DNA from: Flavobacteriales bacterium
GTDB lineage: Bacteria > Bacteroidota > Bacteroidia > Flavobacteriales_F > PHOS-HE28
Reading direction: 5' to 3'
Assembly (NCBI GenBank): GCA_023957375.1
Contig: JAMLHB010000002.1
Coordinates: 310,001 to 374,000 of the forward strand
DNA: 64,000 bases
Shown in pieces: positions 1-6,789 of this stretch. The stretch's first letter is position 1. Each line of letters begins with the position of its first letter. The position numbers and the translations under genes are program-made. The notes beneath the pieces are model-generated. The model did no database searches. It was given only the letters and a program-made list of their open reading frames with translations, and had not been told where the DNA came from.

Positions 1-460
1 CTCAGGAGGAAGCGCTACAGCGAATGCGACAAAAGCTGGAAATCTCCCGGTACAGTCCACGGACGATCAGCATGTACGTAGCGGCCACTAAACAACTGTT
101 CGTGCGCTTTCCCGGCACGGTCCCGAAGGAGATCACGACCGCGGATATCGAGACCTTTCAACATGAGCTGGCCACCGTGCGAAAAGTGAGCAACAGCACC
201 TTGAACCAAATGGTCAACGCGGTGCGGTACTACTACAAGGATGTGCTCGGAGATCCGGCAAGGGTAAAATTCATCGAACGACCACGGGCTGAACGCAAAT
301 TGCCCAACGTGCTCAGTGAGGAGGAAGTTACAACCTTGCTCCGATCGGTGACCAACCTGAAGCACCGGTGCATACTCATGTTGATCTACTCGGCCGGATT
401 GCGCTTGGGCGAATTGACCGCTTTGAAACGGGCTGATATCATACCCGAACGAAAACAGAT

Positions 461-468
461 AGTGATCC
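461..468. repeat. Target site duplication of the IS66 element, left copy
   Basis: AGTGATCC lies immediately before the GTAAG end. The identical copy is at 2710-2717, immediately after the CTTAC end. Deleting the element and one copy restores the recombinase frame. Confidence 0.95.
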
Positions 469-499
469 GTAAGCGTCCGGCCAACCACACCTTAGTGCC

Positions 500-1954
500 C
501 TAGTTGGCTAATGATTGCCAGTTCTGTGGCAGCAGCTCATGGAGCTTGTTGGCCTTGTGGTCGCTGATCCGTGCGATCACATCGCTGAGATAGGCGAAGG
601 GTTCCACGCCGTGCAGTTTGCACGTTCCGAGCAGGGAGTACATGAGGGCGGCGTTGCGCGCACCCCGGTCGCTGCCGGCGAAGAGGTAGTTTTTCCGCCC
701 AATGGCCAGGGGCCGGATCGTGTTCTCGATGCGGTTGTTGTCGATCAGGTAGCGGCCGTCAAGTGTGTAGGCGCGCAGGCGCGGCCATAGGCCCAGGGCG
801 TAGGCCATAGCTTGTCCGATGGGACTCTTGGGTGCCACCACATTGATCTCCGTCTTGACCCATTGTTCGAGTTCGTCGAGTATCGGCACGGCTTCTTCCT
901 GCCTGTGCCCATGGCGCTTGTCCGGGGGATCATCACGTTCATCGCACCGCCGTTCGATGGCATAGAGCTGCTGGATCTTTTCCAGCGCATACGTGGCTCG
1001 GGCCTTATCGTTGTCCAGGGCCTTGTCGAAGTAACGCCGTGCATGGGCCATGCACGCAAGTGCCGTGATGTCTTCTCGCGCAGCAAGCTTCTCGTAGCCC
1101 GCGTAGCCATCCGTTTGCAAGGCACCTTGGAAGTCCTTCAGCACAGCGGCGGGGAACTCGGCGCTGCGGCCAGGACGGTAGTCGAACAGCACGGCCCTGA
1201 TCAGCGGTGCATGATAGACCCATTGGTAGCCTTTGCGCAGCGTGCCTTCCTTATGGTTGTCCTGCACGGGGGCCGGGCTCTCGTCCACCTGCAGGTAGGG
1301 CTGGGCAAGCACTTCCTTGCGCAGCACCTCGCCCAAGGGTTCCAGCAAGGTGGCCGTGGCCTGGAACCAACCGCCGATCGTGCTGTCGCTAACATCGAGG
1401 CCGGCGCGCTTGAGCTGGGTGCGCTGGCGGTACAGCGGCAGGTGGTCGGCGAACTTCGAGACGCAGATATGGGCAGCGAGCGACGCCCCCAAGTTGCTCT
1501 TGGGGAAGGGCAATGTGGGCATCGGTGCGATGGTGACGCTGTCCGCCGCCGCGTACTTGGGCCGCACCAGTTTGTCCACGTGGATGGTGCCCGGAGTGTA
1601 TTGCAAGGTCTCGGTGATCTCCTCGCCGATCCGCTTGGCTCCTTCGGGGATGTTCTCCGGTTCGATCACCCGCTCCACGCGCGGCAGGTGCGCGGCGATA
1701 GCCTCGCGCACGGGCTGCTTCTTCTCCTGCGGCCTGGTGCGCGTATAGCTGATCGCTTGCGTGGGGGGCGGTGCCGTAGCCGGTGTCTCGAAGAGCGTGG
1801 CTTGGCCGGGGTCCGCAGGCACGAAGCGCTCGCTCCTGCTGCCGAAGATCATCCGCTTGAGCTGCTCGAGCTGGAAGGTCAGCAGGGCAACTTGTTCCTG
1901 CGAACGGCGCAATTGCCCGCGTAGTTCCTCGATATCGGTGGCCTCGGCGATCAC
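500..1954 (-). CDS. tnpC: IS66 family transposase TnpC
   Basis: This is the DDE transposase of the IS66 element, 484 residues, close to the usual family length. The N-terminus carries a coiled-coil/leucine-rich segment (IEELRGQLRRSQEQ). The catalytic region shows VDESPAPV, then LQTDGYAGY, then IDNNRIENTIRPLAIGRKN, which matches the conserved C-terminal part of the IS66 core, followed by a small C-terminal domain. It is the last gene of the tnpA-tnpB-tnpC set and ends about 30 bases inside the left end of the element. No frameshift or stop is seen, so it is probably functional. Confidence 0.96.
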   Translation of the reverse strand: MIAEATDIEELRGQLRRSQEQVALLTFQLEQLKRMIFGSRSERFVPADPGQATLFETPATAPPPTQAISYTRTRPQEKKQPVREAIAAHLPRVERVIEPENIPEGAKRIGEEITETLQYTPGTIHVDKLVRPKYAAADSVTIAPMPTLPFPKSNLGASLAAHICVSKFADHLPLYRQRTQLKRAGLDVSDSTIGGWFQATATLLEPLGEVLRKEVLAQPYLQVDESPAPVQDNHKEGTLRKGYQWVYHAPLIRAVLFDYRPGRSAEFPAAVLKDFQGALQTDGYAGYEKLAAREDITALACMAHARRYFDKALDNDKARATYALEKIQQLYAIERRCDERDDPPDKRHGHRQEEAVPILDELEQWVKTEINVVAPKSPIGQAMAYALGLWPRLRAYTLDGRYLIDNNRIENTIRPLAIGRKNYLFAGSDRGARNAALMYSLLGTCKLHGVEPFAYLSDVIARISDHKANKLHELLPQNWQSLAN

Positions 1955-2009
1955 GGTGCGAAGCTCCGATCCACACGCCGGACCGTCAAGATCCAGTTAT
2001 GAGCGTTTC

Positions 2010-2369
2010 TCAACAATGCGCTGTGATCACCGCAGGTTCCCAGCGCAGGCGTGTTCTTGGCTGCTCCAGCGCGATGCCTTCGAGCATGCGCACCAATTGC
2101 CCCCAGGTGAGCTTCACCGCTCCATCACCCTTGGGAAGTTCGATGGTGCCGCGCTCCAGGCGCTTGTACCAAAGCACATAGCCGCCGCTCTCATACAGCA
2201 GCAACTTGATGCGGTCACGCCGCGAGCCGATGAACACGAAGACCTCGCCACTGAGCGGGTCGCGCCCGAGCTCATCACGCACCAGCCCGCACAGGCTATC
2301 AAAGCCCTTGCGCATGTCGGTGGGGGCCTTGCGCAAGAGGTAATGGTGGGCGCTGGTGAGCGCCAACAT
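2010..2369 (-). CDS. tnpB: IS66 accessory protein TnpB
   Basis: A 119-residue IS66 Orf2 protein, needed with TnpA for transposition of this family. The pattern DMRKGFDSLCGLV, then GEVFVFIGSRRDRIKLLLYE, then GYVLWYKRLERGTI is diagnostic of IS66_Orf2. I chose the ATG at 2369 because it gives the family's usual length and its A is shared with the last base of the TGA of tnpA, indicating translational coupling. The frame is open further upstream, but that stretch overlaps tnpA. Confidence 0.95.
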   Translation of the reverse strand: MLALTSAHHYLLRKAPTDMRKGFDSLCGLVRDELGRDPLSGEVFVFIGSRRDRIKLLLYESGGYVLWYKRLERGTIELPKGDGAVKLTWGQLVRMLEGIALEQPRTRLRWEPAVITAHC

Positions 2370-2650
2370 CAGTAAAGCCGCACATAAGCGGCCACTTGGG
2401 CCATGCTTGTTCCCGTGGGCAACAGCAGGCGCACGCCGTTCGGATAGTGCAACTCCAGTCCCTCTCCGGCACCGACTTCCAAGGGCACAAAGCCTCCAGG
2501 CATTTGCTCGCGCCGTGCCTTGCTGCACCAGTAGGCCATGGTATGCAGCCCCAAACCGTGCGCTGAACAATAGCTCTTGCGCGGTTGACCGCTCGCCTTC
2601 CATGCGGCCACATGGGCCAGCATCTCCGTCCTCCGTTCAGTACGTGTCAT
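2369..2650 (-). CDS. tnpA: IS66 accessory protein TnpA
   Basis: A small protein (93 residues from the ATG at 2650; a start at 2677 would give 102) in the position of the first IS66 gene. It begins MTRTERRTEMLAHVAAWK, an N-terminal helix-turn-helix-like region as in TnpA of this family (SGQPRKSYCSAHGLGLHTMAYWC). The C-terminus carries the short strand pattern LELHYPNGVRLLLPTG typical of these proteins. It overlaps tnpB by one base. Confidence 0.88.
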   Translation of the reverse strand: MTRTERRTEMLAHVAAWKASGQPRKSYCSAHGLGLHTMAYWCSKARREQMPGGFVPLEVGAGEGLELHYPNGVRLLLPTGTSMAQVAAYVRLY

Positions 2651-3092
2651 GGCCGCAAACCACGGTATGCGAGCCAAAACTCACAAGATGCAGTTGGCCG
2701 GAGGCTTACAGTGATCCGTGGCGGCAAAGGTCGAAAGGACCGCATCACGTTGCTTAGCAGCAAGGTCCTTGAGAAGCTGGACCGGTACCTTTTGGAATAC
2801 CGACCCAAGGTATACCTGTTCGAAGGGCAGACCGGTGGGGCATACTCGGCAACCAGTGTTCAGAAGGTGTTCCTTCAAGCCAAGGCGAGAGCTGGCATCA
2901 AAGCCCCCGCCACCGTACACACCCTTCGCCACAGTTTTGCCACCCACCTTTTGGAAAAGGGAACCGATCTGCGCTATATTCGAACCCTCTTAGGGCACAG
3001 CTCAAGCAAGACCACGGAGATCTACACCCATGTCAGCACCAAGGCCATTGGAAAGATCCGCAGCCCATTGGATGATCTGGACATCTAGGTTG

Positions 3093-3135
3093 AAGGTGTG
3101 CTTTACGTGCCGAAAAGGCACGATATACACACCTT
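3093..3135 (+). terminator. Hairpin directly after the recombinase gene
   Basis: AAGGTGTG (3093-3100) pairs with CACACCTT (3128-3135), and GTGCC (3107-3111) pairs with GGCAC (3117-3121) around a GAAAA loop. It starts five bases after the recombinase stop codon. There is no T-run, so it may be a Bacteroidota-style terminator or part of the attI region. Confidence 0.5.
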
Positions 3136-3136
3136 A

Positions 3137-3185
3137 CAAAGGCGAAATATCAACACCTGTTACGTCAACTGAGTAGTTATGGTGC
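3137..3185 (+). other. attI-like integration site next to the recombinase gene
   Basis: The junction core GTTATGG is at 3176-3182. GTTATGGTGC (3176-3185) is exactly complementary to GCACCATAAC (3942-3951) at the head of the first attC-like site. That is the relation expected if the G belongs to attI and TTATGG is the start of cassette 1. A second, related GTTACGT lies at 3160-3166. I infer that this is the primary attachment site, because it lies between the recombinase gene and the first cassette and has no paired inverted arms of its own. Confidence 0.6.
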
Positions 3186-3316
3186 ATTTTAAAAGACATA
3201 GCCGTAGGAAACCAACATTTAACTTTTATACTTCTTGACAGACAAAATTGACAATTTAGAAAAGTGGAGACCAGCAACCATTAATGAAAAAACGGGGCGA
3301 CACCGAAAAGCCAAAT

Positions 3317-3345
3317 GAGTAGGGTTAATTTTAAATAAAAAGAAG
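3317..3345 (+). promoter_or_regulatory. Cassette leader with GAGTAGG box, copy 1
   Basis: GAGTAGG starts exactly 29 bases before the ATG of the cassette 1 gene and is preceded 25 bases upstream by ACGGGG. Cassette 2 has the same two words (4131 and 4108), again with GAGTAGG 29 bases before its first ATG. The stretch before each ATG is A-rich, as expected of Bacteroidota translation initiation regions. Its role is unknown. Confidence 0.4.
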
Positions 3346-3936
3346 ATGAAATCGAAAATTCTAATTCATTTAATTGCATTAGTCGTGTTGACAGGATGTA
3401 AAACTTGGGACGCTTCAATGTTAACGCCTAAGAACGACCCTATCACACCAAAGTTACTCACGCTAGAAAGACGAATGGAAGATATGGCGAATACTAGTGT
3501 AGTAACAAGTAACTATGAACTAAAATTATTTACTAAGGAAGTTGAGAATAATTTAATTGACCCCTATGGAGACAAGTATGGTTACATTGCATTAAAAAGA
3601 AATATTATTGACGCAAAAATGGGTATGGGCCAATATATATTATCTAGTATGCTACTGACAATTCCTAATATATTCGGTATGCCTTTTATGAATATTCGAT
3701 ACAAAGTGGAAGTTGAAATAAGAATTCTTGATAGAGACAATAAATTGGTAAGCAAATACACGGCAATTGGCGAATCAAGTGTTAAGGTGGCATACTATTA
3801 CGGATATTCAATGAAAAATGCTATGAGAAAAGCATATCCAGATGCTTTGCTTGATGCTTTCAATAAAATTCGACCACAGATTAAATCGGATGCACAGCGA
3901 GTAAATGAAAAACTAATAACAGCAGGGAAATTATAA
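3346..3936 (+). CDS. Hypothetical lipoprotein, cassette 1 gene
   Basis: A 196-residue protein with an N-terminal signal (MKSKILIHLIALVVLTGCK) ending in the lipobox LTGC, so Cys18 is the expected lipidated residue. It should be anchored in a membrane. The mature part has no motif I recognise; residues about 95-115 are hydrophobic (YILSSMLLTIPNIFGMPFM), perhaps membrane-associated. Codon use is AT-rich and unlike the neighbouring core genes. It is the only gene between the attI-like junction and the first attC-like site. No promoter is obvious apart from the leader shared with cassette 2. Function unknown. Confidence 0.8.
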   Translation: MKSKILIHLIALVVLTGCKTWDASMLTPKNDPITPKLLTLERRMEDMANTSVVTSNYELKLFTKEVENNLIDPYGDKYGYIALKRNIIDAKMGMGQYILSSMLLTIPNIFGMPFMNIRYKVEVEIRILDRDNKLVSKYTAIGESSVKVAYYYGYSMKNAMRKAYPDALLDAFNKIRPQIKSDAQRVNEKLITAGKL

Positions 3937-3944
3937 AAAACGCA

Positions 3945-4077
3945 CCATAACACTCGGTTCAGCGTCAGCCAAGTTAATCGCTTCGATTTAACATTTTTGC
4001 TAAGAAAAAAGTTTTATCTTCGTGTCTAAGTTTAACGTAAAAAGTTGGCCGTACGCCGAGCCGAGGAAACGTTAGCG
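3945..4077 (+). repeat. attC-like recombination site of cassette 1
   Basis: The site is 133 bases, bounded by CCATAAC (3945-3951) and GTTAGCG (4071-4077). The left arm 3953-3972 (20 bases) pairs with the right arm 4045-4065 (21 bases). T4052 is left unpaired, and there are two A/C mismatches and one G/T pair. A 72-base central part separates the arms. This imperfect pairing with an extrahelical base is what a single-stranded attC hairpin shows. Arm length, bulge position and mismatch next to the bulge are the same as in the second site. Confidence 0.72.
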
Positions 4078-4159
4078 GTCAGGCTGTAACGACAGTCCCG
4101 ACCAAAAACGGGGAAGCTGAAAACCGAACAGAGTAGGCAAAAAATAAAACAGACAAATT

Positions 4160-4366
4160 ATGCCAGTAGCACTTCAAGGAGCGGTTATCGTGAAACAAAA
4201 CGGACTGCAAATCTCTTACAAAAAGAAATGTGAAAAATGCGGCAACTTGGACAACAGCACAACTTCAACATCTGCACCATCTACCAAAAGTTCTAAATTA
4301 ACAACCTCATTTCGTTGCTCAAAATGTGGTAACCAACAAAAAGTTGAAATTCAAGGTGGACTTTAA
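4160..4366 (+). CDS. Small zinc-ribbon-like protein, cassette 2
   Basis: A 68-residue protein with two CxxC pairs, KCEKCGN and RCSKCGN, about 28 residues apart. Together they would bind one zinc ion as a zinc ribbon. The linker is rich in Ser and Thr. Such small ribbons occur in nucleic-acid-binding or protein-binding adaptors; nothing more specific can be read from the sequence. It overlaps the next ORF by 41 bases in another frame, so the two may be translationally coupled. It uses the 29-base GAGTAGG leader also seen in cassette 1. Confidence 0.65.
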   Translation: MPVALQGAVIVKQNGLQISYKKKCEKCGNLDNSTTSTSAPSTKSSKLTTSFRCSKCGNQQKVEIQGGL

Positions 4367-5027
4367 GCAGACAACAACAAACAAAACCGATTTGCTTAAC
4401 GACTTGTTTGACAAGTGGGAAAACACCATTCCCGAATATCAAGGCAAGTTCGTTAAGGACGGTATTGTGGACGAGCAACAATTCTTATCTGCCCCGACAA
4501 AGGTTTTGTTCATTGCCAAAGAACCGAACAATCCTAACCAAGACGCAGGCGATTTTAGAGAATGGTGGCGTGAAGAAATTGCTTACACTTTTTCTTATCG
4601 CATTTCCGAATGGAGCTTTGGACTTCTTAACAACTTTCCGCAGTATGACAACATTTGGACAAATAAAGGTTCTGCTCATAAAGCAATCCAAAGTATAGCC
4701 TTTATGAACATTAAAAAATCGGGTGGACTTGGAAACTCTGAATACGACCGAATGATGGAGCATTTAGAAAAGAACTTTGACTTTTTACATCAACAAATTG
4801 ACATCATTTCGCCAGACATCATAATTACCGGAACTTCTTGGAAAGAACTTCGCAACGGACTTTTTCCAAAAGTAAATTGGGTTAATAGTGGTTACGGAAT
4901 TGCAATCGGCAGACACAAAAATGCCAAAGTAATTGACTTCTATCATCCATCGTCACGGACAGCACCTTCTGCTTCATACAGCTTGCTTCAAAACATTATT
5001 AACGCTGAACAATTCCGACAACTATGA
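4326..5027 (+). CDS. Uracil-DNA glycosylase-superfamily-like protein, cassette 2
   Basis: A 233-residue protein. The segment VLFIAKEPNNPNQD near residue 58 sits where UDG-like proteins carry the strand and loop around the first catalytic motif. SIAFMNIKKSGG follows as the usual central strand, and VIDFYHPSSR near the C-terminus matches the HPS motif region of the superfamily. This points to a UDG-like fold; catalytic activity is not assured because the classic water-activating motif is not clear. The start is uncertain: the ATG at 4326 lies inside the preceding zinc-ribbon gene, and the conserved part begins near TDLLNDLFDKWEN. Pairing a zinc ribbon with a UDG-like protein in one mobile cassette could reflect DNA repair or defence, which is inference only. 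Confidence 0.6.
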   Translation: MVTNKKLKFKVDFKQTTTNKTDLLNDLFDKWENTIPEYQGKFVKDGIVDEQQFLSAPTKVLFIAKEPNNPNQDAGDFREWWREEIAYTFSYRISEWSFGLLNNFPQYDNIWTNKGSAHKAIQSIAFMNIKKSGGLGNSEYDRMMEHLEKNFDFLHQQIDIISPDIIITGTSWKELRNGLFPKVNWVNSGYGIAIGRHKNAKVIDFYHPSSRTAPSASYSLLQNIINAEQFRQL

Positions 5028-5049
5028 CGAGAAGAACAGAAGCCCGAAC

Positions 5050-5181
5050 CGCTAACACGGGTTTTGCGTCAGGCGGGCTGATGTGCAAACTTGGAGCTTT
5101 GTGCTTCTATTCAAGTTCAGTGCTGGCAGACAGTTTTGTGCTCCGAAACCCGCCCGAACGCAAAGCCCGAAACCGTTGAAC
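5050..5181 (+). repeat. attC-like recombination site of cassette 2
   Basis: The site is 132 bases, bounded by CGCTAAC (5050-5056) and GTTGAAC (5175-5181). The left arm 5058-5077 (20 bases) pairs with the right arm 5149-5169 (21 bases). A5157 is unpaired, with one A/C mismatch beside it and one G/T pair. The bulge is at the same place as in the first site. The sites share AACAC, GCGTCAG and ACGC...AGCC in equivalent positions, while the 71-base centre differs. Confidence 0.72.
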
Positions 5182-5214
5182 GCCATTCCGCCAAAGCGCG
5201 GAACGGCGTTCAAC
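5175..5214 (-). terminator. Strong hairpin after the acyl-CoA dehydrogenase gene, at the cassette array edge
   Basis: GTTGAACGCC pairs with GGCGTTCAAC, and TTCCG with CGGAA, around CCAAAGCG, with one A/C mismatch. It lies about 35 bases after the stop of the minus-strand acyl-CoA dehydrogenase gene, so it is probably its terminator although a T-run is missing. Its base is the same GTTGAAC that forms the last core site of the cassette array. Confidence 0.55.
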
Positions 5215-6486: not shown

Positions 6487-6553
6487 AGTTCGTAGGGCGC
6501 AGTTCGTAGGGCACAGGGCGTTGGCTCGCGCGCTGCACTACGCCCTACGAACT
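6487..6553. repeat. Inverted repeat of the GTAGGGC type
   Basis: AGTTCGTAGGGC occurs at 6487-6498 and 6501-6512, and its reverse complement is at 6542-6553. It lies in the gap between the acyl-CoA dehydrogenase gene and anmK. Similar AGTTCGTAG words recur at other gene borders in the window (near 56290 and 52880). Confidence 0.7.
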
Positions 6554-6608
6554 ACGCCCCTTGTCCAAATCCATATTCCCAATCCACTGGCGTCCGGGAT
6601 AACATCCC

Positions 6609-6789
6609 AACACCGGCTGCGACACCCTCCGGGGTCGGCGCGCACACGGGCCTGTTAGTCTATAAGCTTTGACCCCTCCGGGGTCAGGCCCCTTTGTTGA
6701 CGCTGGGTTCTTGACCCCGGAGGGGTCGCAGCTTGTAGCATTTGCCCACCACATGGTATTCGACCCCGGAGGGTGTCGCAGCCGGTGTT
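6609..6789. repeat. Palindromic REP-like cluster between two divergent genes
   Basis: A perfect 29-bp inverted repeat occupies 6609-6637 and 6761-6789. Between the arms lie two further palindromes, GACCCCTCCGGGGTC (6671-6685) and its complement GACCCCGGAGGGGTC (6713-6727). So the same CCCCGGAGGGGTC core occurs four times within 181 bases in alternating orientation. No gene is seen in 6422-6918. Confidence 0.85.

Follow-up and report, generated by a model that had tools for sequence, protein, structure and literature searches.

Two gene cassettes lie in an array behind a tyrosine recombinase gene in a Flavobacteriales bacterium (assembly GCA_023957375.1, contig JAMLHB010000002.1), near the start of a 64,000-nucleotide stretch (contig positions 310,001 to 374,000) that is referred to here as the window. 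The recombinase lacks the domain by which IntI is defined, so that strictly the system is not an IntI integron, although by its anatomy it works like one. Without that domain, the enzyme probably recognises the folded cassette sites in a different manner. With a probability of roughly 0.85, recombinases of this kind insert and excise the cassettes through their folded bottom strand at G|TT. The sequences establish the unit structure and its recurrence behind related recombinases, the occurrence of nearly the same cassette at more than one site, the lack of the IntI domain and the link of an extra N-terminal domain with the arrays; the recombinase itself is the probable agent of cassette movement.

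The array opens with a putative attI-like leader (3089 to 3176, plus strand) ending in GAGTAG|TT, which is recognised from its position and from comparison with the leaders of other loci. Cassette A1 (3177 to 4071, plus strand) lies between cores at 3176 and 4071, and cassette A2 (4072 to 5175, plus strand) follows it. An earlier, sequence-only reading of the window had pointed out that each unit starts with bases complementary to the head of its own terminal repeat, and this holds: GTTATGGTGC at 3176 pairs with the 10 bases ending at 3951, read as GCACCATAAC, and GTTAGCGGT at 4071 pairs with the 9 bases ending at 5056, read as ACCGCTAAC. Each head opens an imperfect hairpin that reaches the next GTT, with 119 and 118 bases from AAC to GTT, and the inverted repeats come to about 136 bases once both cores are counted. 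The two attC-type sites extend from 3937 to 4074 and from 5042 to 5178 (plus strand). The open reading frames (ORFs) of A1 and A2, which encode 196, 68 and 233 residues, all have one orientation, and the units contain 34% and 40% G+C, in line with their first description as AT-rich and unidirectional.

The recombinase gene in front of this array (recombinase A), which adjoins it as an integron demands, had been described as a tyrosine recombinase gene. It is present and reads towards the array, but it is not intact, being split by an IS66-family element that had been overlooked. Its 5′ part (1 to 468, plus strand) encodes an N-terminal SAM-like domain and the first part of the catalytic domain (PF13495, E 7.7e-19; partial PF00589), while its 5′ end and the start of an extra N-terminal domain lie upstream of the window (frame start at 5575 of L010). 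The 3′ part (2710 to 3088, plus strand; PF00589, E 6.3e-25) carries HTLRHSFATH and the region of the catalytic tyrosine, with no IntI additional domain. The insertion between them (469 to 2709, minus strand; DDE_Tnp_IS66, E 4e-90) has terminal inverted repeats at 469-493 and 2685-2709 and is flanked by an 8-base target duplication, AGTGATCC, at 461-468 and 2710-2717. As the gene is split, present cassette movement at this locus would need recombinase B, described below, or another source.

Recurrence in this genome and across Bacteroidota

The array in the window (locus A) is one of five in the genome. Locus B holds a second, intact recombinase (P0001, 386 residues) followed by two more cassettes, and loci C, D and E hold recombinase remnants only, followed by one, three and one cassette, respectively. 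All nine cassettes, eight of them distinct, show start-to-head matches of 9 or 10 exact bases. Loci B and D have near-identical leaders up to CCTACG, beyond which their first cassettes differ, as expected from the proposal that different genes should occur beside the same type of recombinase. A full-length copy of cassette A2, 100% identical and ending at the cores, lies among different neighbours at locus D, which speaks for a cassette and against a fixed intergenic element. An empty attI site joined to TTGA-CGCCAT, which had been put forward as a further check, was looked for in the loci collected here and was not found. Behind its decayed recombinase remnant, locus C (G000:C3, L009) carries a 4.9 kb cassette with several ORFs.

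A site model, R1, was trained on 56 sites, including those of A1, A2 and C1. At E<=1 it gives eight matches in this genome, scoring 31-105 bits, which are the sites of eight of the nine cassettes (D2 is missed); locus E (G000:C2:731235-733446, L205) was discovered through it.

Beyond this genome, the recombinase was detected in 25 of 45 genomes of the genus (E<=1e-60) and in 107 of 395 genomes of a sample of the phylum (E<=1e-50), where it spans 71 of 171 genera. Altogether, 79 recombinase loci were examined; they came from genomes of the genus, from the sample of the phylum and from a scan of named genomes, of which the best 80 were taken, with non-Bacteroidota entries mostly set apart. Under a loose rule, 54 of them contain at least one unit, giving 132 units in total, a number that includes doubtful ones (the first units of L052, L121, L130 and L140). 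In 46 of the 54 unit-bearing loci no more than 170 bases separate the recombinase match from the first core, and in the other eight no more than 464.

A stricter signature, consisting of a fixed mispair at core position 11 followed by resumed pairing, played no part in finding the units. Among the Bacteroidota-side loci with at least 700 bases downstream, 71 in number and including a few that bear other names (L136, Firmicutes; L137, Spirochaetota), 46 display it; it is missing from all 41 other relatives and all 24 upstream stretches and turns up once in 710 shuffled sequences. The corresponding counts for the loose rule are 54 of 71, 5 of 41, 40 of 710 and 0 of 24. Chance, which the sequence-only reading had already thought improbable along with terminators, is thus excluded by the related loci, in which the start-to-head rule goes together with the unselected signature, and not by the window alone. 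The signature test replaced an earlier, looser scan whose score of 23 was reached by 3 of 110 shuffles and 6 of 67 reverse-strand windows; the latter are not independent because the start-to-head rule is symmetric. The signature is seen in named bacteria such as Flavobacterium aciduliphilum, Algoriphagus ornithinivorans, Winogradskyella ursingii, Rufibacter and Aquiflexum; in Flavobacterium enshiense, chained units are recognised by the loose rule alone.

Sites can also be followed independently of recombinases. R1 matches 187 of the 395 genomes of the phylum sample at E<=1e-5 (16 of the 187 had supplied training sites), and sites co-occur with the recombinase, being present in 93 of the 107 genomes that have it and in 94 of the 288 that do not. 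These 94 Bacteroidota genomes, which have attC-type sites and no recombinase at E<=1e-50, may hold lone sites, or decayed or more distant recombinases. On 33 IntI and other non-Bacteroidota loci, R1 reaches at most 22 bits.

Site anatomy and strand folding

The sites share a long core box. In 127 unique start-head pairs, nine bases are complementary by selection and position 10 pairs in 62%. Position 11 is a mispair, A.C in 101 and A.G in 17 of the 127, after which pairing resumes, unselected, at positions 12-14 (85, 88 and 75%). Among 128 unique sites, a single A follows the head in 122, and five bases, often AAAAC or AAACC, separate the other arm from the core. Within the arms, position 14 is mispaired (A.C in 61 and A.A in 35 of the 128), and T.G is frequent at position 5 (34 of the 128). 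Compensatory double changes occur at 15 of 15 predicted arm pairs in 56 aligned sites, a count behind which arm pairing had itself helped to select the units.

When sites of up to 125 bases were folded in their circular form, the bottom strand was the more stable one in 110 of 117 and the top strand in 5, with a median difference of 4.0 kcal/mol, and it is on this preference that the bottom strand is proposed as the probable substrate. The two sites of the window both favour the bottom strand in circular form (top -27.9 and bottom -33.5 kcal/mol for site 1; top -34.8 and bottom -37.6 kcal/mol for site 2); in array form, site 1 favours the bottom strand and site 2 slightly the top strand.

From these features, a reaction can be proposed that starts from a cassette circle, whose attC would be exposed in the form of its folded bottom strand. 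Core and arm boxes would then be bound by the recombinase, with the fixed mispairs, and perhaps the N-terminal domain of the enzyme, giving the orientation; joining at G|TT would place the cassette next to the leader that follows the recombinase gene, so that later cassettes would push earlier ones downstream. The fixed mispairs, at position 11 of the core and positions 5 and 14 of the arms, may thereby take the orienting role that extrahelical bases have for IntI.

Alternatively, the cassettes could be moved as ordinary double-stranded, Xer-like sites, with arms that serve for protein binding only and no hairpin in the reaction. Such a pathway would suit a recombinase without the I2 helix, to which single-strand recombination has been tied (PMC7790495), and it would also suit arms that are mostly bulge-free, since 97 of the 117 sites pair ungapped at 13 or more of 20 arm positions and have fixed mispairs instead of a bulge. 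A double-stranded site, however, has no need for arm sequences that vary while their pairing is kept, as the double changes at all 15 pairs indicate, nor for the prevailing preference for the bottom strand, and this route is considered unlikely.

The recombinase and its relation to IntI

The additional domain of IntI (patch III / I2 helix) is absent from the array recombinases, in which it corresponds to a gap in the matches to 2a3v and TIGR02249; the TIGR02249 matches to recombinase A skip the middle of the model. The spacing from KDR to HTLRH is 58-63 residues in array recombinases versus 99-100 in IntI. In a phylogenetic tree, 12 IntI proteins form one clade (100/100) and the array recombinases fall into a separate group (100/98) outside it; a sister relation of the two is not rejected (p-AU 0.351). 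An extra N-terminal domain is carried by 48 of 49 array recombinases and by 0 of 12 IntI; in its predicted fold it comes closest to the N-terminal part of XPB, and a fold shared with XPB or the SMARCAL1 HARP domain is a candidate assignment. The domain may stand in for the I2 helix in recognising the hairpin. A related group of recombinases (L156-L188), mostly from Alphaproteobacteria, has no arrays detected on its 3′ side.

The likeness to IntI integrons comprises the recombinase gene, a putative attI-like leader, cassettes mostly in one orientation with diverse accessory cargo, the complementarity of cassette start and attC head, and an imperfect hairpin with core and inner boxes whose bottom strand folds better. 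The differences lie in the recombinase, with its missing additional domain, extra N-terminal domain and position outside the IntI clade, and in the sites, which have a long core box of about 10 pairs, a fixed mispair and 3-4 more pairs, and, apparently, mostly mispairs rather than a fixed bulge. Recombinase and array also share one direction, with the array downstream, whereas canonical arrays lie on the other side of intI, as in 4 of the 12 IntI loci (four others hold <500 bases there).

It is very improbable that these are canonical cassettes that belong to an IntI elsewhere, with the adjoining recombinase as a bystander. In favour of such an origin, IntI4 is the best solved-structure match of the recombinase, and R1 gives four faint matches, of 15-17 bits, within an IntI locus from Calditrichia. 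On the other hand, no IntI over the cut-off was found in 44 genomes of the genus, the first core lies consistently close to the recombinase, and canonical arrays in the same data are placed on the opposite side of their integrase gene. The residue spacing and the lack of IntI in the genus likewise led to the rejection of canonical IntI as the identity of the recombinase. An explanation by terminators or fixed hairpins between genes, complementary by chance, can be dismissed. Single hairpins in the window are indeed only modestly more stable than shuffles (z -1.4 to -2.7), but the signature is next to absent from shuffled sequences, and an identical unit recurs elsewhere beside other genes.

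The preferred interpretation, an integron-like system with a non-IntI recombinase reading towards its array, therefore agrees with what the sequence-only reading had suggested, given the absent IntI domain and the different cassettes behind near-identical leaders. Among known families, the best NCBIfam model of the recombinase is NF040815, a XerA-like 'site-specific tyrosine recombinase/integron integrase', with one unbroken match of 218.5 bits against a cut-off of 220; the recombinase described here differs from that family in falling below the cut-off, in adjoining cassette arrays and in carrying the extra N-terminal domain. An 'integron-like' subgroup of simple tyrosine recombinases has been described, for which the insertion was called essential for integron function (PMC8138268); the parts of that paper considered here describe no arrays behind members without it. 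Bacteroidota are listed among integron carriers in reviews (PMC8618304). The additional domain is regarded as the defining feature of IntI and integron surveys select for it (PMC2426708, PMC9668308), IntegronFinder among them requiring an IntI-specific domain (PMC9668308), so that such surveys would miss these recombinases. For this reason, and in view of the R1 matches in nearly half of the sampled genomes, current counts may fall far short of the true integron-like gene pool in Bacteroidota. In the open-access literature no description of arrays behind recombinases without the IntI domain was found, subscription journals and preprints being outside the scope of the search.

Integrases have been seen as gaining the ability to handle single-stranded sites by acquiring I2 (PMC7790495), and a cassette system without this helix would make that step directly testable. 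Whether the system is a second, Bacteroidota-wide answer to the problem that integrons solve, with an XPB/HARP-like N-terminal domain standing in for the I2 helix and fixed mispairs for the extrahelical bases of IntI, is judged an even bet; it could be an independent invention or a remnant from before I2.

Cargo, RNA leaders and repeats

Six pairs of chained units are 90-100% identical between different loci, with ends within 11 bases of the cores, and four further pairs, at 73-76% identity, match only in part. Cassette D2 (L015 2059-2778, minus strand) encodes a Sul-like dihydropteroate synthase, for which Sul3 is the best model (294 bits, cut-off 475). It is 99.9% identical to a copy in G023, of the same genus, and 99.5% identical to one in G103, of another class of the phylum; its reading frame has 240 residues in this genome and 272 in the copies (L057, L106). 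Such near-identity across classes suggests that cassettes were transferred recently and widely.

The longest ORF follows the array direction in 123 of the 131 units with an ORF of at least 50 residues, and the median G+C content is 33% for cassettes and 41% for recombinase ends. Cargo was scanned for 123 ORFs (70 + 53), eight of the 131 being left out, four of these as copies or from doubtful units; the scan for defence models covered the first 70. Among the families listed (25 of 50 and 25 of 35) are C5 DNA methylases (6), restriction enzymes, LinB-like nucleotidyltransferases (3), serine beta-lactamase-family proteins (3), cation and mercury transport and superoxide dismutase. In the window, the A1 ORF (3346 to 3936, plus strand; 196 residues) has a lipoprotein-like start and no family over cut-off. 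The two ORFs of A2 are zinc-ribbon-like (4160 to 4366, plus strand; 68 residues; weak, below cut-offs) and faintly similar to the uracil-DNA-glycosylase superfamily (4326 to 5027, plus strand; 233 residues; PF03167, E 0.003, below cut-off).

Both window cassettes have structured RNAs in their leaders, namely a DUF805 RNA in A1 (RF03081, 3259 to 3329, plus strand; 71.7 bits, gathering 51.1) and a DUF805b RNA in A2 (RF02914, 4107 to 4139, plus strand; 43.2 bits, gathering 35.6); the other Rfam matches are below cut-offs. Rfam annotates both families as cis-regulatory, and they may in part be cassette-borne leaders. One further DUF805 match was found in 18 array loci scanned (11 + 7), in a cassette leader of Flavobacteriaceae S0862 (L117 16062-16128). 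A general role as a cassette part was rejected, as most scanned cassettes are without the RNA and four other matches in the genus lie in no detected unit. The motifs in leaders lie 27-83 bases behind the core, and one at G000:C3:166972-167006 is below the cut-off.

Some arrays of the genus close with a hairpin that starts with GTTGAnCGCC and ends in its complement, followed by GAATGACC or similar. In the window, this inverted repeat is GTTGAACGCC...GGCGTTCAAC (5175 to 5214, plus strand), and it stands in the same place at the array ends of some related loci. The strict pattern is present in 5 of 22 loci (the window, L008, L049, L050 and L053), in four of them exactly at the end of the chained array (L050 has no chained unit). 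Further downstream, palindromic intergenic repeats of the GACCCCTCCGGGGTCA type occupy 6495-6559 and 6609-6789, and a similar set occurs in L008 near 5200-5050.
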